Positions 3,022 through 26,281 of a stretch of DNA of 32,731 bases are shown piece by piece (position 1 is the stretch's first letter; each line of letters begins with the position of its first letter). Source of the DNA: a virus; IMG/VR virus record IMGVR_UViG_3300021140_000022, positions 1 to 32,731 of that record; one strand, written 5' to 3'. Under the pieces are notes generated by a model. It ran no database searches, was not told the origin of the DNA, and saw nothing but the letters and a program-made list of their open reading frames with translations. The translations under genes were made by a program, and so were the position numbers.

Positions 3022-3174
3022 ATGGGAAGAAAGAAAAAAGAAGAAATTGAAAAAAAAGTTAAAATTGGAGTTTCGGTTGACCCCGAGCTTCCACAATACT
3101 TTAAAAACAAATCTATTAATCTATCTTCTCTTGTTAATAAGTTGTTAAAAGAATATATTAAAAATGGAAACTAA
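3022..3174 (+). CDS. Small ribbon-helix-helix-like DNA-binding protein (50 aa)
   Basis: The ATG GGA AGA AAG AAA start opens a 50-codon frame ending TAA at 3172-3174. The product begins with a lysine-rich arm, then a short beta-like strand VKIGVSVDPEL, a Pro-containing turn, and two helices ending SSLVNKLLKEYIKN. That is the strand-helix-helix layout of Arc/MetJ/CopG-type repressors, which bind operators as dimers through the N-terminal strand. A Bacteroidetes-type promoter and an ATATTTATTA motif lie immediately upstream. Its last 11 bases overlap the start of the HNH endonuclease gene, so translation of the two is probably coupled. The assignment rests on pattern and length, not on a database match; autoregulation of this promoter is a guess. 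Confidence 0.65.
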   Translation: MGRKKKEEIEKKVKIGVSVDPELPQYFKNKSINLSSLVNKLLKEYIKNGN

Positions 3175-3826
3175 GGTTTGTTCTAAGTGTAAAGGAGAAA
3201 AAAAAGTTTGTGAATTTGGTAGTTCAAAATCATCTAAAGATGGATTATTATATTGTTGTAAAGAATGTAATAATAAACGAAGTAAAACTTATCGTAATGA
3301 AAATTATCAAAAAACATTAGGGCAACAAAAAAAATGGAGGGATAAAAATCCCGAATGGGTTTACAATCGTCAAAAAAAATGGAGAGATGAAAATCGTGAA
3401 TTGGCTAATGAGATGAAACGGAATTGGTTAAGTAAAAATCCTGAAAAAAGAAAAGAATATCGAGAAAATTACAAACCAAGAAAACGGGAACAAAGGAAAG
3501 AAAGACGTAATAATGACCCAATTTTTAATTTAACCAATAGAATGAGAGGTCGATTGAGAAAATACCTAACCATTCTCAACATCACCAAAAAGAATAAAAC
3601 TTTCGAAATTGTTGGATGTTCTCCACAATTTCTTAAGGAACATTTAGAAAAACAATTTGTTGATGGTATGACTTGGGAGAATAGGAGTGAATGGCACATT
3701 GACCACATTATTCCATTATCTTCGGCAAAAACAGAGGAAGAACTTTACAAGTTGTGTCATTATACAAATCTTCAACCATTATGGGTGGAAGAAAATATGA
3801 AAAAAAGTAACAAAATTATTGTCTAA
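3164..3826 (+). CDS. Free-standing HNH endonuclease with N-terminal zinc finger
   Basis: The 220-residue protein has a zinc-binding pair at its start (Cys6-x2-Cys9 and Cys32-x2-Cys35). A very basic middle follows with repeated W+DKNPE-like units (KKWRDKNPEW, KKWRDENREL, RNWLSKNPEK), probably helical DNA contacts. The C-terminal HNH nuclease core is WHIDHIIPLS at 177-186, with Asn202 in TNLQPLW and Asn211 in EENMKKSNK. This architecture is typical of phage homing-type HNH nucleases, which nick or cut DNA at a short site and spread into relatives. Its position inside the replication block, between uvsX and the 5' nuclease, fits such mobile genes. Its start overlaps the ribbon-helix-helix gene by 11 bases. 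I see no sign that it sits in an intron. Confidence 0.85.
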   Translation: METKVCSKCKGEKKVCEFGSSKSSKDGLLYCCKECNNKRSKTYRNENYQKTLGQQKKWRDKNPEWVYNRQKKWRDENRELANEMKRNWLSKNPEKRKEYRENYKPRKREQRKERRNNDPIFNLTNRMRGRLRKYLTILNITKKNKTFEIVGCSPQFLKEHLEKQFVDGMTWENRSEWHIDHIIPLSSAKTEEELYKLCHYTNLQPLWVEENMKKSNKIIV

Positions 3827-5336: not shown

Positions 5337-6713
5337 ATGAACAAGAATTTTGATTATTTAGGAAATACATTTCAATTACAACTTTTAAACCAAATCATAG
5401 TAGATAAGGAATTCTCAATGACCATTATGGATGTCATTGAAAGTTCTTACTTTGACAACAAATACTTTAAAATCATCTTGCAGATGGTTAAAGAGTATTA
5501 TGTAAAATACCAATCAACACCTAATTTCGATACTCTTGAGCAAATCGTTAAATCTGAAATTTCACAAGAACTGGTTGCTAAAATCGTTCTTGACACCATA
5601 ACACAAGTTAAAGATGCTCCATTTGAAGGAACCCAATTTGTTCAAGAAAAGGCTTTGAAGTTCTGTAAACAACAGGAACTTCAAAAGGCGATGGATAAGG
5701 CTCAAAAAATCATCACAGAAGGTGATTTTGAATCGTATGATAAAGTTGAAGGGTTGGTTCGAGAAGCGTTACAAGTTGGGGAAAGAGAAACCGGATTGAC
5801 TGATATATTCTCCAACCTTGACACCGTTTTGGATGAGGATTTTAGACACCCGATTCCGATGGGTATTCCGGGTATTGACAAGTTGTTAAAAGGTGGTTTG
5901 GCGAAAGGTGAGATTGGGGTGATACTCGCTCCGACCGGTGTTGGGAAAACAACCATCTTAACCAAAATTGCAAACACCGCATTTAATCTTGGTTATAATG
6001 TTATCCAAATATTTTTTGAGGATAACCCTAAAATCGTTCAAAGAAAACATTTTACCCTTTGGACTGGTATTGAACCGGATAACTTGGTTCAAAATAAAGA
6101 AGAGGTTATGGGTAAAATTACCGAGATTAAAGAAACTATGAAAAATGAGTTAATCTTGAAAAAATTACCATCAGATTCTGTCACTATGAATCAGATTAAG
6201 AATCAACTTAGAAAAATGATTGCCGACGGAACAAAAATTGATTTGGTTTTATTAGACTATATTGATTGTGTGGTTCCTGAAAGTAGTAGTAAAGATGAGT
6301 GGAAAGCTGAGGGTTCGGTTATGAGAGGGTTTGAAGCTATGTGTCACGAACTTAATTTGGTTGGTTGGACGGCAACACAAGGTAATAGAAGTTCAATCTC
6401 ATCTGAGGTTGTAACAACAGACCAAATGGGTGGGTCAATTAAGAAGGCTCAAGTTGGGCATGTTATTATATCTGTTGCTAAAACATTACAACAAAAAGAA
6501 ATGAATTTGGCAACAATTGCAATTACCAAATCAAGATTGGGTAAGGATGGTGTTGTATTTGAGAATTGTAAATTCAACAATGAATTACTTGAGATTGATA
6601 CTGAAAGTTCGGTAACATTCTTAGGGTTTGAAGAACAACAAGAGGAGAGAAAAAGAGATAGAGTTAAAGAATTATTAGAAAAAAGAAAATTAAGAGAACA
6701 ACAACAAAATTAA
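5337..6713 (+). CDS. 41: DnaB-like replicative helicase (T4 gp41-like)
   Basis: The 458-residue protein has the two-part layout of hexameric DnaB/gp41 helicases, which unwind the fork and work with primase. Residues 1-150 form a helical N-terminal domain. The RecA-type motor follows, introduced by PMGIPGIDKLLKGGL, with Walker A APTGVGKTT at 198-206 and Walker B LVLLDYID with Asp307. GWTATQGNRSS (about 345-355) matches the family's motif H3, and a sensor-like stretch with Arg/Lys precedes the end. The last 30 residues are a charged helix (EERKRDRVKELLEKRK). Length agrees with gp41 (475). The gene is followed after 9 bases by nrdB. A separate primase (gp61) and helicase loader (gp59) are not visible here. 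Confidence 0.87.
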   Translation: MNKNFDYLGNTFQLQLLNQIIVDKEFSMTIMDVIESSYFDNKYFKIILQMVKEYYVKYQSTPNFDTLEQIVKSEISQELVAKIVLDTITQVKDAPFEGTQFVQEKALKFCKQQELQKAMDKAQKIITEGDFESYDKVEGLVREALQVGERETGLTDIFSNLDTVLDEDFRHPIPMGIPGIDKLLKGGLAKGEIGVILAPTGVGKTTILTKIANTAFNLGYNVIQIFFEDNPKIVQRKHFTLWTGIEPDNLVQNKEEVMGKITEIKETMKNELILKKLPSDSVTMNQIKNQLRKMIADGTKIDLVLLDYIDCVVPESSSKDEWKAEGSVMRGFEAMCHELNLVGWTATQGNRSSISSEVVTTDQMGGSIKKAQVGHVIISVAKTLQQKEMNLATIAITKSRLGKDGVVFENCKFNNELLEIDTESSVTFLGFEEQQEERKRDRVKELLEKRKLREQQQN

Positions 6714-6722
6714 AAAAAAAAT

Positions 6723-7670
6723 ATGGAAAAAATATTAGTAGAAAACCCTAACAGGTTTGTTATATTCCCGATAGAACACAACGATATCTGGGAATTTTAT
6801 AAACAACATCAAGCCGCTTTTTGGACTGCGGAAGAAGTAGACTTAACCAATGACATTCGTGATTGGGAAAATTTGTCGGATAATGAAAAGTATTTCGTTA
6901 AGAATGTATTGTCATTCTTCGCGGCATCGGATGGTATCGTTAATGAGAACTTGGCGGAAAACTTCCTAAAAGAAGTTCAATACCCGGAAGCTAAATTTTT
7001 CTACGGATTCCAATTAATGATGGAAAACATACACGGATTGATGTATTCATTATTGATTGACACTTATGTTTCAAATCCAAAAGAAAAAGATGAATGTTTC
7101 CACGCAATCGATAGATTACCTGCAGTTCAAAAGAAAGCTAATTGGGCTTTGAATTGGATTAAAGACGCGTCATTCCAAGAACGATTGGTAGCATTTGCGG
7201 CAGTTGAAGGTATCTTCTTTTCAGGGTCATTCTGTTCAATTTTTTGGTTAAAATCAAGAGGACTTATGCAAGGTTTGTGTAATGCTAATTCATTGATTTT
7301 TAAGGATGAGAACTTACATTGTGATTTCGCGATTCATTTATTGAACAATCATATCGAGGATAAACCAAGTGAAAAGAGAATCAAAGAAATTTTATTATCA
7401 GCGTTAGAAATTGAAAAAGAATTTATTACAGAATCTTTACCAGTTTCACTTATTGGGATGAATTCAAACTTGATGAAACAATATCTTGAGTTTGTTGTTG
7501 ATGGACTTTTGGTTAAACTTGGTTGTAAAAAAGAATTTAATGTTGAACAACCATTTAAGTTCATGGAACAAATCGCGGTTGAAACTAAAGGTAATTTCTT
7601 TGAATCAAGAACTATGGAATACCAAAAAGCAAAATTGAACGAAACTATTACATTTACAGAAGATTTCTAA
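6723..7670 (+). CDS. nrdB: Ribonucleotide reductase class Ia, small (R2) subunit
   Basis: This ferritin-fold protein of 315 residues houses the diiron-tyrosyl radical centre that starts ribonucleotide reduction. The metal ligands are in place: Asp70 in [13 protein letters not shown], Glu101 and His104 in [13 protein letters not shown], Glu162 in AAVEGIFF, and Glu196 and His199 in DENLHCDF. Tyr108 occupies the radical position of the eukaryotic-type R2 pattern [15 protein letters not shown]. The C-terminus TFTEDF resembles the tail by which R2 docks to the large subunit. Its signature is closer to the eukaryote/Bacteroidetes-like R2 group than to E. coli NrdB, which hints at acquisition from a host of that group. 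It is followed after 14 bases by nrdA, the reverse of the T4 order. Confidence 0.93.
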
Positions 7671-7684
7671 ACAAAACATAAATT

Positions 7685-10105
7685 ATGATGTCATTAAGAA
7701 TTAAAAAAAGAGGTGGAGACGATGCGCCGTTTAACCCACAAAAAATTTACAACAGAATTAAAAGAGCTTCGAAAGGATTGAGTGTTAATTCTGACGAGAT
7801 TTTTATAAAAGTAATAACTTCAGTTCCAACTGAAGGTTTGATTACCACTAAAGAATTGGATAAACTTGTTTATGAAATTGCCGCGGCATATACGGGTAGT
7901 CACCACGACTACTCAAGACTCGCATCATCAGTTGCTATTTCAGCGTATCATAAGGAAACTAAAGATAGTTTTTCAGAGACAATGATGGAACTCTATGAAA
8001 CGGGAGTGGTTAATGACAAGTTTATTGAGACTATCAATAACTACGGACCGGAAAAAATTGATGAAGTTATTAATCATGATAATGATTATAATTTCGACTA
8101 TTTTGCTTGGAGGTCATTACAGGAAATGTATTTGTTAAAAACACCACAAGGTAAAGTGATTGAAAGACCTCAACATATGTATATGAGGGTTGCGATATGG
8201 GTTACAAATTCATTTGAAGAAGCGATGGATTATTACAATTCATTATCGAACCAATTAATATCACCAGCAACTCCAATTATGATTAATTCGGGGACTAAAG
8301 TTCCTCAATTGGCTTCTTGTGTATTACATTACAACAATTCAGATTCTCGTAATGGTTTATTACAAACTTTGAATGATATCTCAACTTATTCTTCGGATGC
8401 TGCGGGTATTGGATTATCAATGTCTAATATTAGAAGTAAAGAAAGTAGAATTAATTCATCTGGTGGATTTGCCGGTGGATTATTGAAATACCTTAAGATT
8501 GTTAATGAGTCATTGAGATTTTTTAACCAACAAGGAAGAAGACCTGGTAGTGCGGCGATTTACCTTGAACCATGGCATAAAGATATTATTGACTTACTTG
8601 AAATTAAAAAGAATACAGGTGCTGAGGAGTTGAGAGCAAGAGACTTGTTTACGGCATTATGGATACCGGATAATTTTATGAGAGCGGTTAGAGAAGGTGG
8701 AGATTGGTATCTATTTTGTCCTAATGAAATTATTAAGGCGGGAATTAAACCACTACAAGAATGTTATGGGGATGAATATGAATCAAATTATGATAAAGCT
8801 GTTGAAATGGGACTTGGAAAAAAAATCAAGGCTCAAGAGATTTGGACAAAAATTGTAGAGTCTCAAATTGAAACAGGAGTTCCATATCTATGTTCAAAAG
8901 ACAACGCTAATAGAAAGACAAATCACCAAAACATTGGAGTAATCAAACAATCTAATCTTTGTAATGAGATTTACCAATATACGGACGAGGAAACTACTGC
9001 AATTTGTACCCTATCATCAATGGTATTAAAGAATTTCATTAAGGATGGTAAATTCGATTATAACTTGTTAATCAGTGAAGTAAGGAAAGTTGTTAGAGCA
9101 TTGAATAATGTGGTTGATAAGAATAACTACTCAACAGAAAAAGGGTTAAAAGGTGGTCTTGAACAAAGAGCAATTGCGATTGGAACACAAGGATTGGCGG
9201 ATGTATTCTACTTGATGGATTATATTTTCACTTCAGAAGAGGCGAAAACTTTAAATAAAAACATTTTTGAAGCAATTTATTTCGCAGCGGTTACTGAAAG
9301 TATGGAATTATGTAAGTCAGGAGTTAGAACTCCTTATAAGTTTTTTGAAGGTTCTCCGATGTCTAAAGGTATTCTTCAATTCGATATGTGGGGATTAAGT
9401 GAAACTGATTTATTTTTGGATTGGTCATTACTAAAAGAAGATGTTAAAAAATATGGTGTTTGTAATAGTTTGTTCACCGCTCAAATGCCTGTGGCGTCTT
9501 CAGCTAAGATTACAGGTTCATTTGAAATGACCGAACCAGCTCACTCTGCCTTATTTAATAGACGAGTTGTTGGAGGGGAAATATTAATCGTAAACAAATA
9601 CTTAATTAATGATTTTGAGAAGATGGGCATTTGGAGTGAAGATTTGAAAAATGAAATCATTATGAATGAAGGGTCTATCCAAAATATTAATTTTAACAAC
9701 TACCTTGACCCGGAAGATAAAAATTATCTTAAGAAAGTTAAAAGAGCTGAACACCTGATTAGTAAGTATAAAACAATTTGGGAGATATCTCAAAGAGAAT
9801 TGATTGATATGGCGGCAGACAGAGCACCATTCGTTGACCAATCACAATCAATGAATATCTATATGGCTAATCCAACATTATCAAAAATTACATCATCACA
9901 TTTCCATTCATGGGAAAAAGGTTTAAAAACTTTATGTTATTATGTAAGAACTAAAGCGATTTCAACAGGAGCAAAACACTTGGCGGTTGATGTTTCAAAA
10001 ATACAACAAGTTAAAAATAAAGTCGAAATACCTAAAGTGGATATTATTAATACATCGGTTAAACCCGAAGATAGTCCATTTGAATGTTTCGGTTGTTCTT
10101 CTTAA
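7685..10105 (+). CDS. nrdA: Ribonucleotide reductase class Ia, large (R1) subunit
   Basis: The 806-residue catalytic subunit reduces ribonucleoside diphosphates to deoxy forms. Residues ~3-95 are an ATP-cone (LRIKKRGG, FNPQKIYNRI), so dATP feedback control is likely retained. The barrel contains active-site Cys212 (QLASCVLHY), the thiyl-radical motif NLCNEI with Asn424/Cys426/Glu428, and the second redox Cys441 (AICTLSS). Tyr752-Tyr753 of LCYYVRTK form the radical relay. The tail Cys801-x2-Cys804 (ECFGCSS) is the shuttle pair that re-reduces the active site. Every key residue is present, so the enzyme should be functional. Start may be 7685 or the adjacent ATG at 7688. No glutaredoxin or thioredoxin gene is visible in the window. 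A terminator follows directly. Confidence 0.95.
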   Translation: MMSLRIKKRGGDDAPFNPQKIYNRIKRASKGLSVNSDEIFIKVITSVPTEGLITTKELDKLVYEIAAAYTGSHHDYSRLASSVAISAYHKETKDSFSETMMELYETGVVNDKFIETINNYGPEKIDEVINHDNDYNFDYFAWRSLQEMYLLKTPQGKVIERPQHMYMRVAIWVTNSFEEAMDYYNSLSNQLISPATPIMINSGTKVPQLASCVLHYNNSDSRNGLLQTLNDISTYSSDAAGIGLSMSNIRSKESRINSSGGFAGGLLKYLKIVNESLRFFNQQGRRPGSAAIYLEPWHKDIIDLLEIKKNTGAEELRARDLFTALWIPDNFMRAVREGGDWYLFCPNEIIKAGIKPLQECYGDEYESNYDKAVEMGLGKKIKAQEIWTKIVESQIETGVPYLCSKDNANRKTNHQNIGVIKQSNLCNEIYQYTDEETTAICTLSSMVLKNFIKDGKFDYNLLISEVRKVVRALNNVVDKNNYSTEKGLKGGLEQRAIAIGTQGLADVFYLMDYIFTSEEAKTLNKNIFEAIYFAAVTESMELCKSGVRTPYKFFEGSPMSKGILQFDMWGLSETDLFLDWSLLKEDVKKYGVCNSLFTAQMPVASSAKITGSFEMTEPAHSALFNRRVVGGEILIVNKYLINDFEKMGIWSEDLKNEIIMNEGSIQNINFNNYLDPEDKNYLKKVKRAEHLISKYKTIWEISQRELIDMAADRAPFVDQSQSMNIYMANPTLSKITSSHFHSWEKGLKTLCYYVRTKAISTGAKHLAVDVSKIQQVKNKVEIPKVDIINTSVKPEDSPFECFGCSS

Positions 10106-10109
10106 AATA

Positions 10110-10142
10110 AAAATCCCAACATATGTTGGGATTTTCTTTTTT
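10110..10142 (+). terminator. Intrinsic terminator ending the nrdB-nrdA unit
   Basis: A perfect 24-base palindrome (10111-10122 with 10123-10134) centred on CATATG has a C/G-rich core of TCCCAAC, followed by T-rich sequence to 10142. It lies 5 bases after the nrdA stop and separates the metabolic block from the baseplate block. Confidence 0.85.
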
Positions 10143-10146
10143 AATC

Positions 10147-10180
10147 TATTTATAAGAAAAAACAGAAGAGTATATTTATA
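10147..10180 (+). promoter_or_regulatory. Two TATTTATA motifs before the baseplate cluster
   Basis: TATTTATA occurs at 10147-10154 and again at 10173-10180, the second just 3 bases before the gp25-like start. This is the first tail gene after a terminator, so a promoter is required hereabouts. The upstream copy is at the right distance for a conventional leader. The downstream copy would imply a nearly leaderless transcript, or else acts as part of the translation leader. Confidence 0.45.
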
Positions 10181-10183
10181 GTT

Positions 10184-10654
10184 ATGGCTAATGGTGTTAC
10201 ATATGGTATTAATTTTCCGTTTAGAGATTCTCTAAGAGGAAACTACTTACAATTAACAGAATTACAATCAGAAGAAATTAAAGCTGATTTAATTCATCTA
10301 TTGTTAACTAGAAAGGGTTCGAGATATTTTCTACCTGAATTTGGAACGAGATTATATGAATTTCTTTTTGAACCATTTGATGGATTAACATTTAACGCTA
10401 TTGAATCTGATATAAGAGACGCTATTGAAAACTTTATGCCAAATTTATTGGTTAATAGTTTAAGTATAACACCAGCCGACCCACAAGAAGAAGTTGATAT
10501 TGCAACAGGTCAAAATTTTGTGGGAACAAGCGAATCGTCAATATATCGATTTCCGGGAAAAGGAACTTCAGAATATACTGCAAAAATAAGGATAGATTAC
10601 TCAACCAATGGTTCTACTTTTGGTCAAAGTGATTTTGTGATTATTAATATTTAA
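10184..10654 (+). CDS. 25: gp25-like baseplate wedge protein
   Basis: The 156-residue protein belongs to the GPW/gp25 family, a conserved baseplate wedge component of contractile tails from which sheath assembly is nucleated. The diagnostic segment is residues 36-68: LIHLLLTRKGSRYFLPEFG followed by a Tyr/Phe-rich turn and FEPFDG, with Glu63-Pro64 matching the start of the family's EPR motif. An ~25-residue insert with a Gly/Ser-rich loop precedes the C-terminal strands. Length is near T4 gp25 (132). It heads the structural block behind a terminator and two TATTTATA motifs, and the gp6-like wedge gene follows after 5 bases. A contractile tail, so a myovirus morphology, follows from this pair. 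Confidence 0.88.
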   Translation: MANGVTYGINFPFRDSLRGNYLQLTELQSEEIKADLIHLLLTRKGSRYFLPEFGTRLYEFLFEPFDGLTFNAIESDIRDAIENFMPNLLVNSLSITPADPQEEVDIATGQNFVGTSESSIYRFPGKGTSEYTAKIRIDYSTNGSTFGQSDFVIINI

Positions 10655-10659
10655 ATAAT

Positions 10660-12498
10660 ATGGCAAACAACAGAATATCATACGCTAGTAGAGATTATCA
10701 ATCAATAAGGGCAGACCTTTTAAATTATACGAGAACTTATTATCCTGAATTGATTCAGGATTTTAATGACGCTTCTATATTTTCCGTATTTTTGGATTTA
10801 AATGCTGCGGTCGCAGACAATCTACATTATAATATTGACCGAAGTATTCAAGAAACGGTTCTACAATATGCTCAACAAAGGTCGTCAATTTATAACATCG
10901 CAAGAACTTACGGATTAAAATTACCGGGACAAAGACCATCTGTTTCATTGGTAGACTTCTCAATCACAGTTCCTGCTTTTGGGGATAAAGAGGATGAGAG
11001 ATATCTTGGAACATTGGCTCGAGGGTCTCAAGTTGTTGGTGCGGGGGTTGTATTTGAGAATGTTTATGATATTGATTTTGCATCACCATACAATGCTCAA
11101 GGATTCCCAAATCGTTTAAAGATTCCAAACTTCAACGCTAATAATGTTTTAGTTAATTATACGATTACCAAAAGAGAGGTGGTGGTTAATGGAATAACTA
11201 AAGTATTCAAAAGAGTTATTAACGCAAATGATGTTAGACCATTCTTTGAATTATTTTTACCTGAAAAAAATGTTTTGGGGATTACAAGTGTACTTTTGAA
11301 AAATGGGACAAACTATACTAATGTTCCAACAACCGCAGAGTTTTTAGGATTAGACAATCGATGGTATGAAGTAGATGCGTTAGCGGAAGATAGAGTATTT
11401 GTTGAAGACCCAACAAAAGTTTCGGACCAACCCGGAATTAAAGTTGGAAGATATATTCAAACTCAAAATAAATTTATTACGGAATATACGCCAGAAGGAT
11501 TTAAAAAAATGACATTTGGTGGAGGAACTAACACCGCTCAAGACCAATTAAATCAATTTACGACTTTAGGCGCTACATTAAACTTACAAAGATATTCTAA
11601 TAATCTATCATTAGGTGCGGCTCTAACACCAAATTCAACATTATTTATTCAATATAGAGTTGGTGGGGGATTGGCAACAAACTTAGGAACAAATGTTATT
11701 AATCAAATTGGAACTGTTTCATTTTTCGTTAATGGACCTTCCGAAGTTACAAACTCATCCGTTGTTAATTCATTGAGATGTGTTAACGTAACCGCGGCGG
11801 TTGGTGGGGCAGGAATTCCATCATTAGAAGAAATTAGAAATTATGTTTCATTTAACTTCGCAGCACAAAAAAGAGCTGTTACGGTACAGGATTATGAATC
11901 ATTAATTAGAAATATGCCGGCGCAATTTGGCGCACCCGCTAAAGTATCAATAACAGAAAACGATAATAAAATTTTAATTCAAATATTATCATACGACACT
12001 TCAGGTAAGTTAACAAACATTGTGTCAAATACTTTAAGACAGAATATTGCGAATTATTTATCAAATTATAGAATGATGAATGATTACATTTCTATTTTCA
12101 GTGCGGAAGTAATTGATTTAAGTATGGATATTTCTATTGTTTTAGATTCCGCTCAAAATTCAGGGCAAGTAATCGCTAGCGTGGTCGACAAAGTATCCGC
12201 TTATTTTAATCCACAAACAAGACAATTAGGTCAGAATGTTTATCTATCTGAAATTAGAAGTATTATTCAAAATACAAATGGGGTATTAACGGTTGCGAGT
12301 ATGGATATTTTTAATGAGGTTGGTGGACAATACTCTTCAGCGGAAACATCTATGTTATATGAGAATGAAGAAACAAAATTAATTGGTCCTGTTGATGATA
12401 CAATATTTGCTCAACCGTCTCAAGTTTATCAAGTTAGGTACCCGAATAAAGATATTAGAATATCGGTAAAAAATTTCCAATCAATAACTTTTTCATAA
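10660..12498 (+). CDS. 6: gp6 / baseplate J-like wedge protein
   Basis: The 612-residue protein matches the gp6/baseplate-J family, whose dimers form the inner ring of the baseplate around the hub. The N-terminus has the typical SYASRDYQSIRADLLNY helix followed by SIFSVFLDLNAAVADNLHY. The C-terminal half holds the J-like core: LEEIRNYVSFNFAAQKRAVT, VQDYESLIRNMP, a beta-hairpin KVSITENDNKILIQIL, and repeated ferredoxin-like units ending near VASMDIF. Length is close to T4 gp6 (660). Its final 45 codons (from 12364) are duplicated at 12975-13109 beyond a minus-strand gene, with one amino-acid change (Gly to Thr) and two silent changes. The present 3' end may therefore be a replaced version (see findings). 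Confidence 0.87.
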   Translation: MANNRISYASRDYQSIRADLLNYTRTYYPELIQDFNDASIFSVFLDLNAAVADNLHYNIDRSIQETVLQYAQQRSSIYNIARTYGLKLPGQRPSVSLVDFSITVPAFGDKEDERYLGTLARGSQVVGAGVVFENVYDIDFASPYNAQGFPNRLKIPNFNANNVLVNYTITKREVVVNGITKVFKRVINANDVRPFFELFLPEKNVLGITSVLLKNGTNYTNVPTTAEFLGLDNRWYEVDALAEDRVFVEDPTKVSDQPGIKVGRYIQTQNKFITEYTPEGFKKMTFGGGTNTAQDQLNQFTTLGATLNLQRYSNNLSLGAALTPNSTLFIQYRVGGGLATNLGTNVINQIGTVSFFVNGPSEVTNSSVVNSLRCVNVTAAVGGAGIPSLEEIRNYVSFNFAAQKRAVTVQDYESLIRNMPAQFGAPAKVSITENDNKILIQILSYDTSGKLTNIVSNTLRQNIANYLSNYRMMNDYISIFSAEVIDLSMDISIVLDSAQNSGQVIASVVDKVSAYFNPQTRQLGQNVYLSEIRSIIQNTNGVLTVASMDIFNEVGGQYSSAETSMLYENEETKLIGPVDDTIFAQPSQVYQVRYPNKDIRISVKNFQSITFS

Positions 12499-12501
12499 CA
12501 A
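12364..12501 (+). repeat. 138-bp direct repeat, copy 1 (3' end of the gp6-like gene)
   Basis: Identical to 12975-13112 at an offset of 611 bases except for four substitutions, at 12385, 12386, 12396 and 12468. Homology stops abruptly at both sides. The pair brackets the minus-strand gene at 12521-12931. Confidence 0.95.
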
Positions 12502-12520
12502 TCAATGAGTTTATTATAAA

Positions 12521-12931
12521 TTATATATTAATATAATAAATGTCACCACTTTTTTCAAATTTAAAATTTGGTTGGTATTTCTCCAAAAAAAATTGATATA
12601 TTTTTTCTCTTTGAATTTTTTTCTCTTTACTACCGTAAAGAGAAAAAACAAATCCTTTAAGTTTATTCTTTAAAGTGAAGTCGTTAATTATATCTATTAT
12701 TGTTATTTTTAGCATACCAATCAGTTCCTTTAACGCCGACTTAACCTTATATATATTTTTGTTAATCTTAACATCTTGACTCAACTCAACAATCGCAATT
12801 TTATAATACCCATCTTCCATCAAATATGGTGAAATAATGATTTGATATTTTTTAATATCACCATCAAATGAATAAAGGTGTTTACCATTTATCTGTTCTA
12901 ATTGGAAGTTGTAAGATTTTTTTTCCGACAT
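12521..12931 (-). CDS. Uncharacterised minus-strand gene inserted after gp6 (136 aa)
   Basis: This is the only convincing minus-strand gene in the window. The 136-residue product starts ATG TCA GAA AAA AAA. It has an N-terminal strand-rich half (NGKHLYSFDGDIKKYQIIIS, then YYKIAIVEL), a central helix KSALKELIGMLKITIIDII, and a C-terminal GFVFSLYGSKEKKIQREKIY helix before a final strand IYYINI. It is predicted soluble and basic. I recognise no family with confidence. The layout loosely recalls small phage proteins ending in an FS...R.K+Y segment. Base composition is even more AT-rich than its neighbours. It is flanked by a 138-bp repeat of the gp6 3' end and has its own upstream GTATTTATTG motif, which together look like a cargo or mobile insertion. 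Confidence 0.75.
   Translation of the reverse strand: MSEKKSYNFQLEQINGKHLYSFDGDIKKYQIIISPYLMEDGYYKIAIVELSQDVKINKNIYKVKSALKELIGMLKITIIDIINDFTLKNKLKGFVFSLYGSKEKKIQREKIYQFFLEKYQPNFKFEKSGDIYYINI
12617..12648. repeat. Perfect 14-bp inverted repeat inside the minus-strand gene
   Basis: Arms 12617-12630 and 12635-12648 are perfect reverse complements around a 4-base loop TACC. The hairpin lies within the coding region, over codons for FSLYGSKEKK. Neither strand has a T tract after it, so it does not look like a normal terminator. Confidence 0.8.
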
Positions 12932-12948
12932 TCAAGAAAACTATATAT

Positions 12949-12958
12949 CAATAAATAC
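12949..12958 (-). promoter_or_regulatory. GTATTTATTG motif upstream of the minus-strand gene
   Basis: Read on the minus strand, GTATTTATTG lies 17 bases before the start codon at 12931. It has the same sequence and orientation relative to its gene as the motifs before plus-strand tail genes, which argues that the motif is directional and not mere AT-rich background. Confidence 0.4.
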
Positions 12959-12974
12959 ACTTAGTCGTAAAAAA

Positions 12975-13109
12975 AATGAAGAAACAAAATTAATTACTCC
13001 TGTTGACGATACAATATTTGCTCAACCGTCTCAAGTTTATCAAGTTAGGTACCCGAATAAAGATATTAGAATATCGGTGAAAAATTTCCAATCAATAACT
13101 TTTTCATAA
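12975..13109 (+). pseudogene. Detached duplicate of the gp6 C-terminus (45 codons)
   Basis: The frame from AAT GAA GAA through the TAA at 13107-13109 encodes the last 44 residues of the gp6-like protein with a single substitution. No start codon lies in frame upstream, so it is not expected to be translated. Two of the three codon changes relative to copy 1 are silent, so the copies diverged while both or either were under selection, or one was imported from a relative. Confidence 0.85.
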
Positions 13110-13112
13110 CAA
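12975..13112 (+). repeat. 138-bp direct repeat, copy 2
   Basis: Partner of 12364-12501 (134 of 138 bases identical). It ends with the same stop codon plus three bases, after which the sequences diverge completely. Confidence 0.95.
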
Positions 13113-13180
13113 GTTTATTTTATTTTACTTTAACTTATAATTTTATCATGTGGATTTTTCTTTTAAAAATTCCATATAAA

Positions 13181-13190
13181 GTATTTATTA
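13181..13190 (+). promoter_or_regulatory. GTATTTATTA motif before the giant tail gene
   Basis: GTATTTATTA lies 14 bases before the ATG at 13205 and follows the non-coding remnant left by the gp6 duplication. A new promoter is expected here because the convergent minus-strand gene interrupts the upstream operon. Confidence 0.45.
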
Positions 13191-13204
13191 AATAAAGTAG
13201 TTTG

Positions 13205-16200
13205 ATGGGTCAATCGTATAGAATAAAAACAGAGTTAGGTATTAATAAGTTAATTAATATTCAACTAGACCAGCAATTTGAATTTTTAGAGGTTTTATCG
13301 TTAACATTACAACAAGAAGACATTTATACTAAAAGTTGTGCTCAATATGGTGTTATTGTGGGTAGAGTTACAGCAAACAATGGTTTTGGTCTCCCAAACG
13401 CAAGAGTATCTGTATTTATCCCAATCACTTCGATAGACGAATCAAACCCTATCATTTCAAGTATTTACCCATACAAATCACCTAACGATAAAAATGAAGA
13501 TGGGTATCGATATAACTTATTACCATATGAGAAATCTTACTCAACCCATTCTGCGACTGGAACATTACCCTCAAGATTAGATTCATTAACTGGTGATACC
13601 GCAGTTGAAATTTATGACAAATATTACAAATATAGTGTAAAAACTAACGATAGTGGTGATTATATGATAATGGGAGTACCTCAAGGTAATCATAGTCTTG
13701 TAATGGATGTTGACTTATCTGATATTGGTGAATTCTCACTAACACCACAAGATTTAATAAGAATGGGTTTGGCAACTGATGCTCAAGTTGCGGGAAATCG
13801 TTTTAGAACATCTACGGACTTAAATTCTTTACCACAAATTATTAATTTAACAAAAGATGTTGAAGTATCACCTCTTTGGGGTGACCCTGAATTGTGTGAT
13901 ATTGCAATAAATCGAGTTGATTTTGATTTAAGAGACGATGCAAATGTCGACATTCAACCAACATCGGTGTTTATGGGGTCAATATATTCAACTTCAGATA
14001 GTTATAGGGTTAGAACAAATGCAAAACCTGCGGATGATATGGGTAATCTTTGTTCATTAATTGCTGGTCCGGGACAAATATTAGCCATAAGACAAACAAT
14101 TTATCAAGATAATGAAGGTAATCCTGTTTTGGAGCAACATCAATTAGAACAATCTGGTAATATAATAGATGGTAATGGAGTTTGGTTAACTGAATTACCA
14201 ATGAATTTGGATTACTTTATAACAAATGAGTTTGGTGAAAAAGTTCTATCTAATGACCCAACAATTGGTATACCAACTAAAGCAAAATATAGGTTTAAAA
14301 TCAAATGGCAACAATCGCCAAGTTTAAGTGAACAAGTTAGAAGACCATATTATTTGGTACCTAATGTTAAAGAATATGGTTGGGGTGCAGGAGGTGGAGC
14401 GATAAATAATTCGCTACAACTAGAAAGTTCATATTATTTTGGTCTTGCATGGAGTGGATACACTAACGGATTTAATAAAGCAATACCGCCACCACCATTA
14501 CAACCAGTTTCAGATTATACTAATAGATTAAATGAAATTATTAATTGTGAAGATACTTTTTATGAATTTCAATATAATAAAGTTTACACAGTTGCTGGTC
14601 TAATTGACGAATTTAAAAATGGTGGAAGAGGTAATTTCATAGGGATTAAAGAAATTGATAGTTCAGATTGTGACAATACAATTAATAAGTTTCCTGTAAA
14701 TGACGGATTTAGAAATTTTGACTTAATATATTTTATTTTTGCAATAATCCTTCAAATAATACAAATAATAGGTATACCTTTACTAACAATATTTCATTTT
14801 TTGGTATTTCTTTGGAATAACTTTGCAGTAATTATTTTGTTATTTTTTATTGGGTTATTAATAAAGGCTGCGGCACAACAAGGATTTTTAGTTATTGCGG
14901 CAATTGCTGGTTCCGCAGCGTTTGGTGCAACTGCCGCCATGATTGTTCCACATGCGTTACTGGCTTTAGTATTTGGTGTGGGGGCACTTTTCTTAGCAAT
15001 TAATTTTAGACAAATTATAAGTTATAAGTTTGGTCGACTTAAATTACCTATGATGACATATCCTGATTGCCAAGCTTGTGAATGTGACCCTGAAACTACC
15101 GCTCCAGGAGGAGGAAACCAAGAGACCGCACCACCATCAGGTTTATTAACACAATTATCTAATGGAGGGTTATATGTTGATGGGTTAGAAATTCAATTTT
15201 TCAACCCTAATACTGATAATGAAGATAGTGCTCAATTGAGTGCAATTACAATATCTCAATCATTATCAGGAAGATTCAGTACCAAAACTCCAACACTATA
15301 TAAATCAACTTTTTCAGAACCATTTACTTTTCCAAATACTGATGGAACTAGATTTGGGTCTAAACTAATCGCAGCAGGTATTACCTTACCTCCGGGAGAA
15401 AGAATTAATAAGTATAATACAAGAAAAAAATATTTTGATAATGTTAACAAAATAAAAGTAACATTTAATTATCCAAGTAATATTGGAAAATCTCACGACG
15501 ATAACACATTAACCGTTTTGGCGTCACAAATTCTTCAACCTGGTACATTATTAACTTTTATCGACCCTCTTAAAAGTAAAGACGTAAACTTTTTATGGAC
15601 AGGGACGACCGCAATTGGAAATAACTTATTAAATGGTGTTAATGGTATTATCAAGAATACCGGGTTTACCGCAAATGTGAGTTATGCGACAACACAAGCA
15701 GGCCCTCCATCCATTGTCCCATATATTATCCCATCGGGTAATTCGACTTGTTTTTTATCAATAACATTTGATGTGGTGGCCACGGGAACTACGACTTATT
15801 TTAGTTGTGCTAACAATAAAGTAACAGTAACTGCAACAACAACTGGAACTAAAACAATAACCAATGAGAATGGTATAGATGTCACAACATTAGGTGGAAC
15901 TGCTGAGATAAGTGGAATTACTTATGGACAGGCTTGTCAAAGATATATTTATCCTTCAGACCTTGAATATTATCAAGTATTAACTGCAATTACGATAACA
16001 ACTACGGTTGTTAATGGTAAAACAATTTATTCATTACCGGGACAAGTCCTTGATAATTCAGGAAACCCCGACCCAACCAAAGGGTTTTGGAACGATTTAA
16101 TTGCGGATAATAAAGGGTTTTTATTTTCTAATAGAGCAAGTGGTGAGTCTGAATTAAATGACAGGTGGGGATATATAGGTGGAACAGATTATATTGATAC

Positions 16201-18721
16201 TTGTAAATTATGTATTTATGATGACGATTATGAAAATGTTGTCCCACCAGATAATCCTAGTTTTAGTTACCCTACCTCAATATTAGATGGATTTAATGAA
16301 CAAGTGGTTTTAATATTACAAAGAGGTGTTGACCCTTATTCTCCGAAATTGCAAAATAGTTACGGAATTGGGAGAATATTAGGACATCCAAGTGAAAACG
16401 CGGTTGTAATTACAGGGATGACAAGAATGAATATTCCAATCCAACCATTACCTTCTAATTCTACAATTTCAGTTCAAAATCATAAAAATGTTGATGAAAT
16501 ATTTTCAGGTTCTTATTTTTATACGCCGGGTATTCCAAATAATATAATACCTAATGCTTCAACAACACCAGGTCTTGCATTTTCATCATATACCACAAGT
16601 AATGTTGGATACTACGGAGCTTTGGATAGTCGATATTTGAGACCACCATCTCAACTAAAAATAACCTCAATTTTAAATCAAGTATTTTATGGAAATGCAA
16701 TCCAAAGTAATACATTTTTTCAAGATGGACCTGGAGCTCTCTTTGTTCAACCTACTTACAATGTAACAACAAATACTCCTTATGGTATTAATTCAATTTC
16801 AGTTGGAGGACCTACAATAATGAAGGGTGTTGCAAGTTCTCAAATCGCAAATTTATTTGCAGGACAAAGTACTAAATCGTCTTGGGTACCTGACATTAAT
16901 TATGGTGGAAAAACACCATTAAATCCAAGTACTCGATATTTACCAACTGAAGACTTATCAGGTGGTGCATATATGTTTAGAGGACCTCTAAGCACGTTTT
17001 TATCGGATTGGGAGTTAGTGGCAGATAATAAACTTGGATACCAAATAACTGAAGGTCAACCTTTTAATTTATATTTTAGTCCATTATTATTACCTGAATT
17101 TACAGGAACTACAGGAGTTAATTCAGGACTCACAATTAGTTCTTCAACTCAAATGGTAATGAGAACTGACCGTTTACCATCTTCTGACGGATTTGATGTT
17201 CAGAAAAGAGCAACAGATTTTGCGTTTTTAAATGGTAGTGTCGGTTTACTACAACAAAATTTATCATTCACGGTATATTCAAAAGAAGCGGGATTAAGTT
17301 TTGGGGCACCTAGCTTTTCAACAGGTGCAGAACAAGTTACCGCAGACATTCAAAATCAGGTATTATCTGCAACAGTTTTTGAAACCATGAATACTTGTGA
17401 AAAAATGGTTGGACTTGAGCAATATAGTGGTAATGGTGTTACTTTTGGTGTAAAAAAAGACGCGTTAACCACAGATAATGTTGAAAATGGGTGTTATGTA
17501 ATGTTGAATAGGCCGTTATTTGATTTAACAAAAGATATTGAAACATTTGGGGAATGGGGTTATAGACTTAGATTTTATTATGGGTTATGTAGAGGAGTCT
17601 TGTCCCAATCATTTGTAAATAATTGGGTTAACGGTTCGTTATATATGTTCCCAATCGAAGTTGATACTTTTTATGATATTAACAACAAACCAACATCTGA
17701 ATACCCAACTCAAATTGTTTATTTTGATAATAAAACAAATAATTTTTATTTTAGGAGTTCACCGTATTTGTTATCTTCAAATCCTCCAAGATTTATCGGC
17801 TCACCGATTTTCGAATTAAATAGTTCTTTAAACTCTAGAAATTTATTATTCCCAACAACAATAATTAACTTAGGATATAAAGATGATTTTTATGGTGAAA
17901 TAATATTTGACCCCGCAGCTAAGGGTTATATCATGAGAAGTTTAAACTCCACTTCTTATTCTGACACTTCAGATTTGGTTAATTTGTTTGTGATTAGTAG
18001 GATTACGAATAGTAGTTTTTTGGGTAACATATTGTCTGGTTTAAATAATGCGCTTAATATCTTATTCTCAAGAAAGGGCCTTAGAATTGATGGTGATTTG
18101 GCTCAAAGTATGTCAATTAATTCTGAGTATGGTGTCATACCATTTTCACCTGAATACTATAGTCCTGAGAGTGGTTCTGTTGTTGTTTTAAATGGTCCTA
18201 CGATGGGAGTTTTCTTTTCATCAACAACTTTTGATTTACAAAATAAAGATTTTCTGAGTCCGGGGATTATTAACTTCAGGTCTCCATTTAGTACCAATGT
18301 GAATACATTTCAATATGGTATAAAATCACAAGTTGTCCCGTTCTATCAATGGGATTTGGTTCAACTAGGTGGAAACAACACAATTTTTGGTAGTGAAAGG
18401 AATACTTGGAAAACAAACCAAGGACCTACCAATGAAGGAATTTTTAGTAGAAATTACCAATCTTTAAATAGAAGAGAACCTGACATTGCAGGAACCCCAA
18501 GTTATTTTATGGGTTCGAATGTTCAAGGAACGGGAGGTAACAAAGATATATATCAGAGAGGGTATATTTTCAATGTTGACTCTAATGGTAATTACTCATT
18601 TAGTGCTGGTACATGGCCTGACGAATTTTTAGTTGGAGCACCTAATCATTTCTATTTTGGAACAATTCAAGGAGAATCGGCTTTAGATAAATTTAAAACA
18701 AAATATTCGATTGATGAATAA
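13205..18721 (+). CDS. Giant baseplate/tail protein with Cna-B-like and hydrophobic regions (1838 aa)
   Basis: This is the largest gene in the window. Residues ~45-175 resemble a carboxypeptidase-regulatory/Cna-B-like beta-sandwich: YGVIVGRVTANNGFGLPNARV is the opening strand pair and VKTNDSGDYMIMGVPQGNHS the closing one. A ~70-residue insert separates the two. Residues ~506-605 form a strongly hydrophobic block with four or so membrane-length segments (LIYFIFAIILQIIQIIG, IILLFFIGLLI, LLALVFGVGALFLAI). A cysteine cluster follows (Cys622, 625, 627), then a second CxxC at 1000-1003. The remaining ~800 residues are beta-rich and Asn/Ser/Gly/Thr-rich. The place after gp25 and gp6 corresponds to T4 gp7 (1032 aa), but I see no clear gp7 signature. 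The in-frame TTG one codon upstream is not preferred over ATG 13205. Confidence 0.75.
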   Translation: MGQSYRIKTELGINKLINIQLDQQFEFLEVLSLTLQQEDIYTKSCAQYGVIVGRVTANNGFGLPNARVSVFIPITSIDESNPIISSIYPYKSPNDKNEDGYRYNLLPYEKSYSTHSATGTLPSRLDSLTGDTAVEIYDKYYKYSVKTNDSGDYMIMGVPQGNHSLVMDVDLSDIGEFSLTPQDLIRMGLATDAQVAGNRFRTSTDLNSLPQIINLTKDVEVSPLWGDPELCDIAINRVDFDLRDDANVDIQPTSVFMGSIYSTSDSYRVRTNAKPADDMGNLCSLIAGPGQILAIRQTIYQDNEGNPVLEQHQLEQSGNIIDGNGVWLTELPMNLDYFITNEFGEKVLSNDPTIGIPTKAKYRFKIKWQQSPSLSEQVRRPYYLVPNVKEYGWGAGGGAINNSLQLESSYYFGLAWSGYTNGFNKAIPPPPLQPVSDYTNRLNEIINCEDTFYEFQYNKVYTVAGLIDEFKNGGRGNFIGIKEIDSSDCDNTINKFPVNDGFRNFDLIYFIFAIILQIIQIIGIPLLTIFHFLVFLWNNFAVIILLFFIGLLIKAAAQQGFLVIAAIAGSAAFGATAAMIVPHALLALVFGVGALFLAINFRQIISYKFGRLKLPMMTYPDCQACECDPETTAPGGGNQETAPPSGLLTQLSNGGLYVDGLEIQFFNPNTDNEDSAQLSAITISQSLSGRFSTKTPTLYKSTFSEPFTFPNTDGTRFGSKLIAAGITLPPGERINKYNTRKKYFDNVNKIKVTFNYPSNIGKSHDDNTLTVLASQILQPGTLLTFIDPLKSKDVNFLWTGTTAIGNNLLNGVNGIIKNTGFTANVSYATTQAGPPSIVPYIIPSGNSTCFLSITFDVVATGTTTYFSCANNKVTVTATTTGTKTITNENGIDVTTLGGTAEISGITYGQACQRYIYPSDLEYYQVLTAITITTTVVNGKTIYSLPGQVLDNSGNPDPTKGFWNDLIADNKGFLFSNRASGESELNDRWGYIGGTDYIDTCKLCIYDDDYENVVPPDNPSFSYPTSILDGFNEQVVLILQRGVDPYSPKLQNSYGIGRILGHPSENAVVITGMTRMNIPIQPLPSNSTISVQNHKNVDEIFSGSYFYTPGIPNNIIPNASTTPGLAFSSYTTSNVGYYGALDSRYLRPPSQLKITSILNQVFYGNAIQSNTFFQDGPGALFVQPTYNVTTNTPYGINSISVGGPTIMKGVASSQIANLFAGQSTKSSWVPDINYGGKTPLNPSTRYLPTEDLSGGAYMFRGPLSTFLSDWELVADNKLGYQITEGQPFNLYFSPLLLPEFTGTTGVNSGLTISSSTQMVMRTDRLPSSDGFDVQKRATDFAFLNGSVGLLQQNLSFTVYSKEAGLSFGAPSFSTGAEQVTADIQNQVLSATVFETMNTCEKMVGLEQYSGNGVTFGVKKDALTTDNVENGCYVMLNRPLFDLTKDIETFGEWGYRLRFYYGLCRGVLSQSFVNNWVNGSLYMFPIEVDTFYDINNKPTSEYPTQIVYFDNKTNNFYFRSSPYLLSSNPPRFIGSPIFELNSSLNSRNLLFPTTIINLGYKDDFYGEIIFDPAAKGYIMRSLNSTSYSDTSDLVNLFVISRITNSSFLGNILSGLNNALNILFSRKGLRIDGDLAQSMSINSEYGVIPFSPEYYSPESGSVVVLNGPTMGVFFSSTTFDLQNKDFLSPGIINFRSPFSTNVNTFQYGIKSQVVPFYQWDLVQLGGNNTIFGSERNTWKTNQGPTNEGIFSRNYQSLNRREPDIAGTPSYFMGSNVQGTGGNKDIYQRGYIFNVDSNGNYSFSAGTWPDEFLVGAPNHFYFGTIQGESALDKFKTKYSIDE

Positions 18722-23297: not shown

Positions 23298-26281
23298 TGG
23301 CGGTAGAGATTAAACAAACTAAATTTTTTTATCCACCGAGACCCGGAAATGGGGCGGGGACTTTTTCTGACAACATTGTAGGATTACAAACCGTTGAGGG
23401 AGGAGGACTTACGCAAGGTAATTTCGAATTTACCACAGGAGTTGTTGAAAAGGTTAATAGAACTTTTAATGTAGGAGCGTTCTCCGAACCTATGTCATTA
23501 GACATGATGGGTATTGATAGTTTGGAACAGAGTAGAATAATACTGGCGACACAATTTAGAGTTTATCCAAATTATGATATATCCCAAGTTCTTAATTTTT
23601 CAATGTATGGGTCGCTATCGAAAAGATTTAGCGTATCTATTACAAAAATTATAAATTATTTTCCCGCGGCATTAGACATTCAATTTAATAATAATGAATT
23701 CGTAACCGGAAATACCGCTTATGATATTGTATATGATTCTCAGGAAGATGAAACTTATTTTAAGGTTAATGTTGATAGAATTAATAATCCATTTGACATT
23801 GATTATTCGGTAAATGCGATTAATAACTTATCATTAAGAGAGATTGAGGTATCCAAGTATCGAAATTTGTATAATACTTATTTGGATTATTGTATTAATA
23901 TTAATGACAATATTTACCAAGTATTGGCATTTGTTCCATCGGAAACATTATCTACCGGATATATTCAATTATATGTGTCAGGGTCTCCATTTGGTACGAC
24001 CGCAACTACAATCACAAATGATTTTTTGATAAGACCTAACGATATTATAACTGATAAAATATTCCAAGAAGATTTTGATGAAGTTGAAAAGTTTTTATTA
24101 AATAGATTGGTTAGACCTGAATATACTGCGGTTTTCCAAGTACCACAACAGAATGAATACGGACAGACTTATACAGAATATCAACAAGTAACATGGCCTA
24201 AAAACGGACCTTGGAATTTGGATATTGCGTCATACCAATTCGATGCCTATTTGGAACAAATTCAAGAAATAGCGGTAAATTTAGATTCATTTAAGACAAA
24301 TTTAATTTCAAGATTTTTGGTTACCGATTCACTTAAAGAATTTGATACTCTTGGACAAAAGGTTGAAAAAATATTTCAAATCTATGGTAGAAGTTTTGAC
24401 CAAGTAAAACAATTTATTGATGGATTGGCTTATATGACTTCTGTTAATTATAACCCATCGAATGATATTCCTTCGGAGTTATTAGTTAATTTGGCAAGAA
24501 CTTTAGGATGGTCGTCAAATTTTTCTCCAATCACCAATGAAGATTTTTTAAGTTCGGTATTTGGAAACACATCCACACCGACTTACCCTGGTTATGCGAG
24601 GGCTCTCACACCAACTGAATTAAATTACGCTTATTATAGAAATTTGATTTTGAATGCTTCGTATTTGTTTAAATCAAAGGGAACAAGAAGGTCAATTGAG
24701 TTTTTATTAAGATTGATTGGAGCACCTGATTCATTAATTGAATATAATGAACACATTTATTTAGCGGACCAAAGAATTAACTTAGACCAATTTGAAACAC
24801 AATGGGCTCAAATTTCGGGAGGAACTTATGTGAATTCAGTACCTACTTATTTACCCGGAGACACTTATAAAATAAAGGGGCAATTATATACCGCATTTAC
24901 AACAACAGAAACATACCAAAGTGCGAATGTTAATTTAACTGACTACCCAATTGATTTTGAAGGTTACCCTAAAGCGCCGATAAACACCGAAACATATTTC
25001 TTCCAAATAGGTTCAGGGTGGTATGAAACTACACCACAACATAGGAGTCCCGACCAAGTACAATTAACTGGATTGGTTTATACGGGACAAAATTATGATA
25101 TTCAAACTCAATTATCACCATTCACTTATGGACAAACATACCTGAATCGTTTTAGGGATTTTCCATTTATGAATGAAGGGTTTAAACTTAGAAAAGTTGT
25201 TGATAATAATAAATCGTGGTTGTCTGATGACGATAAAATCCGTGTATCTACACAAGGTGATTATAACGCGTATTATTTTGTTGATAATGAAAAATTGGTA
25301 TTAAATGTTAAAAATGTTGATATATTCTTAAATCCGGCTCAAGGGTTATTATATGATGTTTGGGATGAATCGAGACAATACGATTATCCAATCCCTGAAT
25401 CAGGTCTAACGGTTGGTTACCCTGTTCCAGGTGGCGTTGATTCAACTTTTGTTAATCCTGAACCAAAGAAAAAAACATTTTTTGAATTCTCTCAAACTTT
25501 TTGGGAGAATATGATTAATACAAGAAATAGACAATACATATCGGATGGAAAGACTGGAGGATATCCAACATTACAATCAATTTTTTGGAAATATATTGAA
25601 TCAGAACAAACTGTCGGAATACCAAACAACCAATACACTTATCAAAAATTAATTGATTATGTTAATGGTATTGGTCCGTATTGGACAAAATTGGTAGAAC
25701 AAATGGTTCCAGCAACGACTATTTGGAACGGAGGTGTTAGATTAGAGAATTCAATTTTGCATAAACAAAAATTTGTTTATAGGAGACAAAGAGGGTGTCA
25801 ATTCATTCCAGTTGTTGTCAATCCATGTTTTATTATTTCAGGTATTTTTGATTATAATTGTAATAGTGAATTTGCGGAATTTAATATCTATCCTTGGAAT
25901 AATCGTGATATTAATGTCTCAAATTTTAATAGTATATTAGCCAATAGAATTGACAATATGTTAGCTCAAAGCGGATTAACATTAAACCAATGTAATCAAA
26001 ACTCGGTATTAACCGAATGGTATGTTGATTTAGAACTCAATGGACAACAAATAATTAAAGAGTTATTTTATGTTGGATTTGGTTATACTGCTGTCCCAAC
26101 TACAGAACAATGGAGGTTGGCATTAATTAATTATTTACCACAATTAATAAATTATGGATACACTTATTCGTTAATTGGTAATATATTAACAATAACGAAT
26201 TTAAGTTGTTTGGATAATACCGCAATTAGTTCAGTTTCTCTAAATGTGGGAATAAACATTAATATTAACTGTACTCAATAA
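23297..26281 (+). CDS. Large baseplate/tail protein with tail-protein-I-like motif (994 aa)
   Basis: The 994-residue protein has an N-terminal ~200 residues of beta-rich sequence. A helical middle (EFDTLGQKVEKIFQIYGRS, FKSKGTRRSIEFLLRLIGAP) has its KGTRR motif at residues 461-465. The YLFKSKGT..IEFLLRLIGAP pattern, in which a helix is followed by KGT and a hydrophobic helix, resembles the segment of tail protein I and related baseplate-to-fibre connectors that marks the fibre attachment region. The C-terminal third is aromatic and includes a Cys-containing domain (CQFIPVVVNPCFIISGIF, DYNC). Both ends overlap neighbours by a single base (TAATG). It immediately precedes the fibre/adhesin genes, so a role as the adaptor joining baseplate and fibres is plausible, but inferred. 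Confidence 0.65.
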   Translation: MAVEIKQTKFFYPPRPGNGAGTFSDNIVGLQTVEGGGLTQGNFEFTTGVVEKVNRTFNVGAFSEPMSLDMMGIDSLEQSRIILATQFRVYPNYDISQVLNFSMYGSLSKRFSVSITKIINYFPAALDIQFNNNEFVTGNTAYDIVYDSQEDETYFKVNVDRINNPFDIDYSVNAINNLSLREIEVSKYRNLYNTYLDYCININDNIYQVLAFVPSETLSTGYIQLYVSGSPFGTTATTITNDFLIRPNDIITDKIFQEDFDEVEKFLLNRLVRPEYTAVFQVPQQNEYGQTYTEYQQVTWPKNGPWNLDIASYQFDAYLEQIQEIAVNLDSFKTNLISRFLVTDSLKEFDTLGQKVEKIFQIYGRSFDQVKQFIDGLAYMTSVNYNPSNDIPSELLVNLARTLGWSSNFSPITNEDFLSSVFGNTSTPTYPGYARALTPTELNYAYYRNLILNASYLFKSKGTRRSIEFLLRLIGAPDSLIEYNEHIYLADQRINLDQFETQWAQISGGTYVNSVPTYLPGDTYKIKGQLYTAFTTTETYQSANVNLTDYPIDFEGYPKAPINTETYFFQIGSGWYETTPQHRSPDQVQLTGLVYTGQNYDIQTQLSPFTYGQTYLNRFRDFPFMNEGFKLRKVVDNNKSWLSDDDKIRVSTQGDYNAYYFVDNEKLVLNVKNVDIFLNPAQGLLYDVWDESRQYDYPIPESGLTVGYPVPGGVDSTFVNPEPKKKTFFEFSQTFWENMINTRNRQYISDGKTGGYPTLQSIFWKYIESEQTVGIPNNQYTYQKLIDYVNGIGPYWTKLVEQMVPATTIWNGGVRLENSILHKQKFVYRRQRGCQFIPVVVNPCFIISGIFDYNCNSEFAEFNIYPWNNRDINVSNFNSILANRIDNMLAQSGLTLNQCNQNSVLTEWYVDLELNGQQIIKELFYVGFGYTAVPTTEQWRLALINYLPQLINYGYTYSLIGNILTITNLSCLDNTAISSVSLNVGINININCTQ

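Follow-up and report, generated by a model that had tools for sequence, protein, structure and literature searches.

Some integrative elements enter a gene and restore its 3′ end; such elements are found in tRNA genes, icd, and the like. In T4-like phages, novel ORFs located between core genes have been attributed to illegitimate recombination, free 3′ ends have been suggested to make illegitimate additions, and the junctions with imported DNA are typically devoid of mobile-element signatures (PMC2993671). The first description of break-induced replication came from T4, where it was called recombination-dependent replication (PMC3678771). In the MMBIR model, the return before or behind the site of collapse decides between deletion and duplication, and the junctions then carry sequence from elsewhere (PMC2621351).

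The locus described here lies in a DNA of 32,731 nucleotides from an uncultured bacterial virus (the window; IMG/VR record IMGVR_UViG_3300021140_000022), in which a small cargo gene is bracketed by two copies of the 3′ end of a gp6-like gene. Like the moron/ORFan insertions of T4-like phages (PMC2993671), the locus has a small orphan gene between conserved structural genes in one lineage, with joints free of mobile-element signatures; the gene is an extra one between genes that adjoin in the relatives, is lineage-specific, and deviates in composition. Unlike those insertions, the joint bears an unusually clear 138-nt duplication of the neighboring gene end. The free-standing homing endonuclease genes known from T4-like phages (PMC2993671) are likewise small, intercalated between conserved genes, and patchily distributed, but in the cargo no endonuclease motif was found, and no biased spread was seen. 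Rearrangements ascribed to MMBIR (PMC2621351) also show local duplication around sequence from elsewhere with nearly absent joint homology, although that model was built for cellular chromosomes. The original prediction had likened the locus to tRNA-targeting integrative elements. The likeness to elements restoring a 3′ end holds for the duplicated end of the target gene and for the gene staying functional, but it fails for the tiny 473-nt insert, which gave no recombinase or nuclease match, for the supplied gp6 end, which appears not to be foreign, and for recurrence, of which none was found; a recombinase might be encoded elsewhere in the genome, of which the record is a fragment. A transposon or IS was rejected as well, with no transposase match and a duplication of 138 nt rather than a short one, and the repeat search reported no terminal inverted repeats at the ends of the insert. 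A literature search found no paper with exactly this architecture.

Structure of the duplicated gp6 3′ end

The two copies of the gp6 3′ end (E1 and E2, Table 1) are direct repeats of 138 nt each, identical at 134 of the 138 positions and with a start-to-start distance of 611 nt; the coordinates originally given for them, on both sides of a minus-strand gene, were reproduced exactly. In a self-BLAST the pair scores 233 bits, whereas no direct repeat in 30 Markov-shuffled sequences exceeded 38 bits, which excludes a chance origin. E1 comprises the last 45 codons of gp6, stop codon included, and both copies terminate in the identical stop followed by CAA. Three codons differ (E1/E2: GGT/ACT, encoding Gly/Thr; GAT/GAC; and GTA/GTG), the latter two silently, so the alignment agrees with the earlier description of a common stop plus three bases and of two silent changes among three. 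The gp6 of the relatives has the same length (612 aa) as that of the window.

Table 1. Features at the gp6 locus, with positions in the window
Feature	Position	Strand	Basis
gp6-like baseplate wedge gene, intact, 612 aa	10660..12498	+	PHROG 219 baseplate wedge subunit (2.4e-23); Pfam Baseplate_J (1.7e-7)
E1, copy 1 of the gp6 3′ end, in frame with gp6	12364..12501	+	Repeat alignment, site table
X, inserted segment, 473 nt	12502..12974		Missing from all empty-site relatives; 23.7% GC vs 33.4%
Cargo gene, 136 aa	12521..12931	-	ORF list; longer than shuffles; weak PHROG 27255 match
E2, copy 2 of the gp6 3′ end, untranslated remnant in native downstream context	12975..13112	+	Repeat alignment, site table
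Native spacer with hairpin (about 13149-13175) and late-promoter-like motif (13175-13197)	13113..13201	+	Conserved in relatives, motif score, hairpin fold
Next gene of the cluster, 1839 aa, putative tail or structural protein, untouched by the insertion	13202..18721	+	ORF list; adjoins gp6 in relatives

The identical E1–X–E2 structure recurs in four more IMG/VR contigs, whose metagenome IDs differ (L001, L002, L003, and L004; L001 and L006 are one contig and were counted once), giving five carrier contigs with the window counted. These four are 99.8–99.9% identical to the window and show no SNP within 12364–13112. The identical join in four further contigs speaks strongly against an assembly artifact, which was therefore rejected.

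Empty and filled sites in relatives

Relatives of gp6 were gathered with the protein and with a degenerate pattern matching the gp6 end, and the spacer from the gp6 stop to the next gene, which lies directly 3′ of gp6 in the relatives, was measured in each. A single gp6 end followed by a spacer of 15–98 nt (mostly 82–95 nt) was found in 146 of the 147 distinct gp6 ends, extending to distant relatives (gp6 identity, 77–99%), and a spacer of 703 nt in the carrier lineage only. The closest empty site is that of L007 (gp6, 99% identical; spacer, 92 nt), and 703 equals 92 plus the 611 nt separating the starts of the two copies. Because the single end is found in all the others and this sum only here, the insertion at the gp6 end is real and derived. 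The spacer 3′ of E2 is that of L007 with a few changes, including the hairpin and the motif TATTTATTAAATAAAG, which is kept ahead of the next gene in relatives and, of all positions in the window, scores highest at 13175. By virtue of this native spacer, E2 stands in the ancestral context, and E1 together with the 473-nt insert is formally the addition.

These comparisons bear out the original prediction in that 611 nt (the gp6 duplicate plus the cargo) were gained at the gp6 end with the frame kept, and in that the duplicate and the minus-strand gene, far from being carried by all relatives, are absent where the gp6 end is single. The further idea of a recurring docking site found no such backing: one of the 147 distinct gp6 ends is occupied, no other cargo was seen at the junction among them, and none of 45 relative records outside the carriers contains the cargo. 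The gp6 gene gave no match in bacterial genomes, hence no host could be derived from it.

Inserted segment and its cargo gene

At 136 aa, the cargo ORF exceeds every ORF obtained by dinucleotide shuffling of the insert (500 shuffles; maximum, 109 aa) and is hence very likely a genuine gene. As first noted, it is the sole convincing minus-strand gene, here for the window up to its repetitive last 2 kb, other minus-strand ORFs overlapping plus-strand genes. The encoded protein weakly matches PHROG 27255 (7.8e-4), a family of unknown function whose profile gave no match in 23 relative records. Nothing credible was found in Pfam, NCBIfam, or PADLOC, and the scores for HORMA (0.088), SerS (0.027), and OMP decarboxylase (0.4) were regarded as chance. 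Profile searches of X, in which the cargo is the sole ORF and which comes from a record that is a genome fragment, gave no recombinase, nuclease, or transposase match, and those of the cargo none to HNH, GIY-YIG, LAGLIDADG, or other nucleases. No relatives of the cargo were found among GenBank phages, among plasmids, or in an octapeptide scan of 84,980 genomes. A single-sequence structure model of the protein, of low confidence (pLDDT, 62), had no significant match in BFVD or PDB, and its fold matches all had Z-scores under 8; the best Z in VIA-align (7.1) was not distinctive, and several of these insignificant matches are RNase H-like.

A late promoter for the cargo gene, suspected from TATTTATTGAT, was not upheld by the motif model, and the region upstream of the gene differs from the late motif of this phage group. 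The sigma-70-like hits for the cargo were at chance level, and no terminator was found for the gene. The cargo may be a tolerated or mildly useful accessory gene of the moron-like kind. Within the cargo ORF, an inverted repeat at 12617–12648 has a perfect 14-bp stem and a 4-nt loop; none in the window is longer (insert shuffles, at most 11; RNA z-score, −4.45).

Ancestry of the two copies

In the site table, E1 and E2 share three states against L007 (12408, 12417, and 12441), and at 12408 and 12441 L007 agrees with L008 against both copies. E1 has two private silent changes, while in E2 the neighboring bases GG have become AC, which yields a Thr absent in 121 relatives, as expected of an untranslated remnant. 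Each copy is five changes away from L007, and the two are four changes (2.9%) apart. A tree of the 138 nt placed both copies in the L007/L008 lineage, joined to each other at weak support (66/0), and pairing either copy with L007 was not rejected (p-AU, 0.23 and 0.31). The common lineage, together with the three shared states, points to a local duplication, and the 138-nt site table and tree make a foreign replacement gp6 end unlikely. Of the two origins put forward at the outset, local duplication followed by insertion fits better than an element bringing its own replacement end, the tree test being weak. The mutational history of the copies would also be compatible with two closely related parents, and on these sites a one-parent and a two-close-parent origin are not firmly separable.

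Compared with L007, the window is a sharp mosaic at 5967–15187, with 7 differences at 7922–10776, about 3% difference at 10777–13774 (with the insert inside), and 10–30% difference beyond these near-identical and 3% blocks, indicating recent recombination between close phages. The insert thus lies within a stretch in which co-circulating phages recombine normally. A recombination breakpoint at the insert itself was rejected, since each flank differs from L007 by about 3% and the changes in identity fall near 10777 and 13774.

A similar scar in a relative

When 2.26 Mb of relatives (a redundant set) were scanned for direct repeats in two copies, no further case turned up at gp6. In L227, a 711-aa tail gene has its final 55 nt (8806–8860, minus strand) repeated at 6312–6366 with 98% identity; the copied end is fused behind a fragment of a glycosyltransferase-9 gene (GT9; PF01075, 5.8e-8), and the scar (6312–6603) adjoins a tandem copy of the downstream gene, a TPTNT-repeat gene. 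This scar is an independent case of the same type as that at the gp6 end. Joints between foreign gene pieces and copied structural-gene 3′ ends seem to have formed on more than one occasion among these phages, with site and cargo differing between the cases; error-prone recombination or replication accounts for this better than a specific element does.

Origin of the insertion

We favor, with a probability of roughly 0.55, a one-off insertion with local duplication through replication template switching or illegitimate recombination, followed by ordinary inheritance and recombination. The phage is T4-like and would probably replicate by recombination. Synthesis may have traversed the 138-nt gp6 3′ end (E), quit its template just past the stop codon, and continued on an AT-rich foreign template for about 473 nt (X), taking up the 136-aa gene in reverse orientation, before returning to the phage DNA 138 nt behind the point of departure; the product would be gp6–E–X–E–spacer–next gene. 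With gp6 whole and the second E retaining the native spacer, hairpin, and promoter before the next gene, the late genes would suffer little harm and the insertion would be tolerated. Possible microhomology at the joints amounts to just 2–3 nt (CAA and AA), no more than AT-rich DNA would offer by chance, and both the donor of X and the switch points are putative. The 2.9% divergence of the copies makes the repeat older than the present clone, so that selection or infrequent recombination between the repeats is needed. The clean scar suggests how a T4-like phage may acquire a gene next to a late structural one and leave the latter unbroken, the join being recognizable by the duplicated gene end, and such scars could show the entry of accessory genes without a mobile element. 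No new class of element is revealed, and an ordinary one-off accident is favored over a travelling element.

The same arrangement could have come from two parents, by unequal crossover or single-crossover integration between an E–X genome (or circle) and a close relative, E1 and X being derived from one and E2 with the downstream region from the other; this is a possible but rather doubtful origin. The four differences between the copies, close to the five from each to L007, are as sister parents would give, the region does recombine, as the mosaic shifts attest, and the pairing of either copy with L007 was not rejected. However, the three states distinguishing the copies from L007 are common to both, an E–X arrangement without E2 was not found among the 147 sites, and X would already have to stand behind a gp6 end, which pushes the question back by one step. 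It is improbable that the 136-aa protein is an unrecognized endonuclease cutting empty gp6 ends, by which the insert and its flanks would spread through break repair and the duplication would arise as a by-product of imperfect repair. Many free-standing homing endonucleases occur in T4-like phages (PMC2993671), the location of the insert in a roughly 3% divergent block beside a backbone nearly identical to L007 is what co-conversion could leave, and the low-confidence model of the cargo gives weak RNase H-like fold matches; yet these matches are insignificant, the cargo lacks any nuclease match, and the empty site is kept in all non-carrier relatives, giving no sign of spread.

Very little speaks for the element of the original prediction, which would target the gp6 3′ end and replace it by a copy that the element carries, as elements in tRNA genes and certain protein genes do. 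The perfect restoration of frame and stop, the predominance of silent codon changes (2/3), and the old end left downstream agree with such an element, but the 473-nt insert has no integrase, neither copy of the gp6 end appears foreign, and no second cargo, or second site with a gp6 end, was present in the 147 gp6 ends or the 2.26 Mb of relatives. A minimal non-autonomous mobile unit, consisting of a copied structural-gene 3′ end plus one gene and moving between phages by their homologous recombination with the target left intact, is likewise highly unlikely; the scar in L227 would then be its second case. Finally, an ancestral E–X–E may have been lost repeatedly elsewhere by recombination between the repeats. 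Direct repeats of 138 nt should promote loss by homologous recombination, and they predict that the insert can be lost reversibly; even distant relatives are all empty, however, and the copies differ at four sites as against at least 15% across the gp6 ends of the group, by which the duplication is recent. Ancestral presence is effectively refuted by this small divergence, unless gene conversion is invoked.

Other features of the window

A 220-aa endonuclease VII/HNH-like gene (PHROG 1035, 7.5e-27) at 3164–3826 lies between recA-like and exonuclease-like genes, where most relatives checked have a gap of 37–57 nt. Two relatives contain a full-length version (48–50% identity), and L210 and L127 retain a 58-aa stretch only. 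The gene is likely a free-standing mobile endonuclease and a true homing-type candidate in the window. In the tail-region gene at 26281–29550, SprB repeats (5.6e-23) occur along with a weak match to a Por-secretion tail, which hints either at a Bacteroidota host or at a fiber of adhesin-like type. A strong terminator-like hairpin (AAAATCCCAACATATGTTGGGATTTT; z, −5.9) is located at 10110–10142, 3′ of the ribonucleotide reductase gene, and a late-promoter-like motif at 10140 precedes the gp25-like gene.
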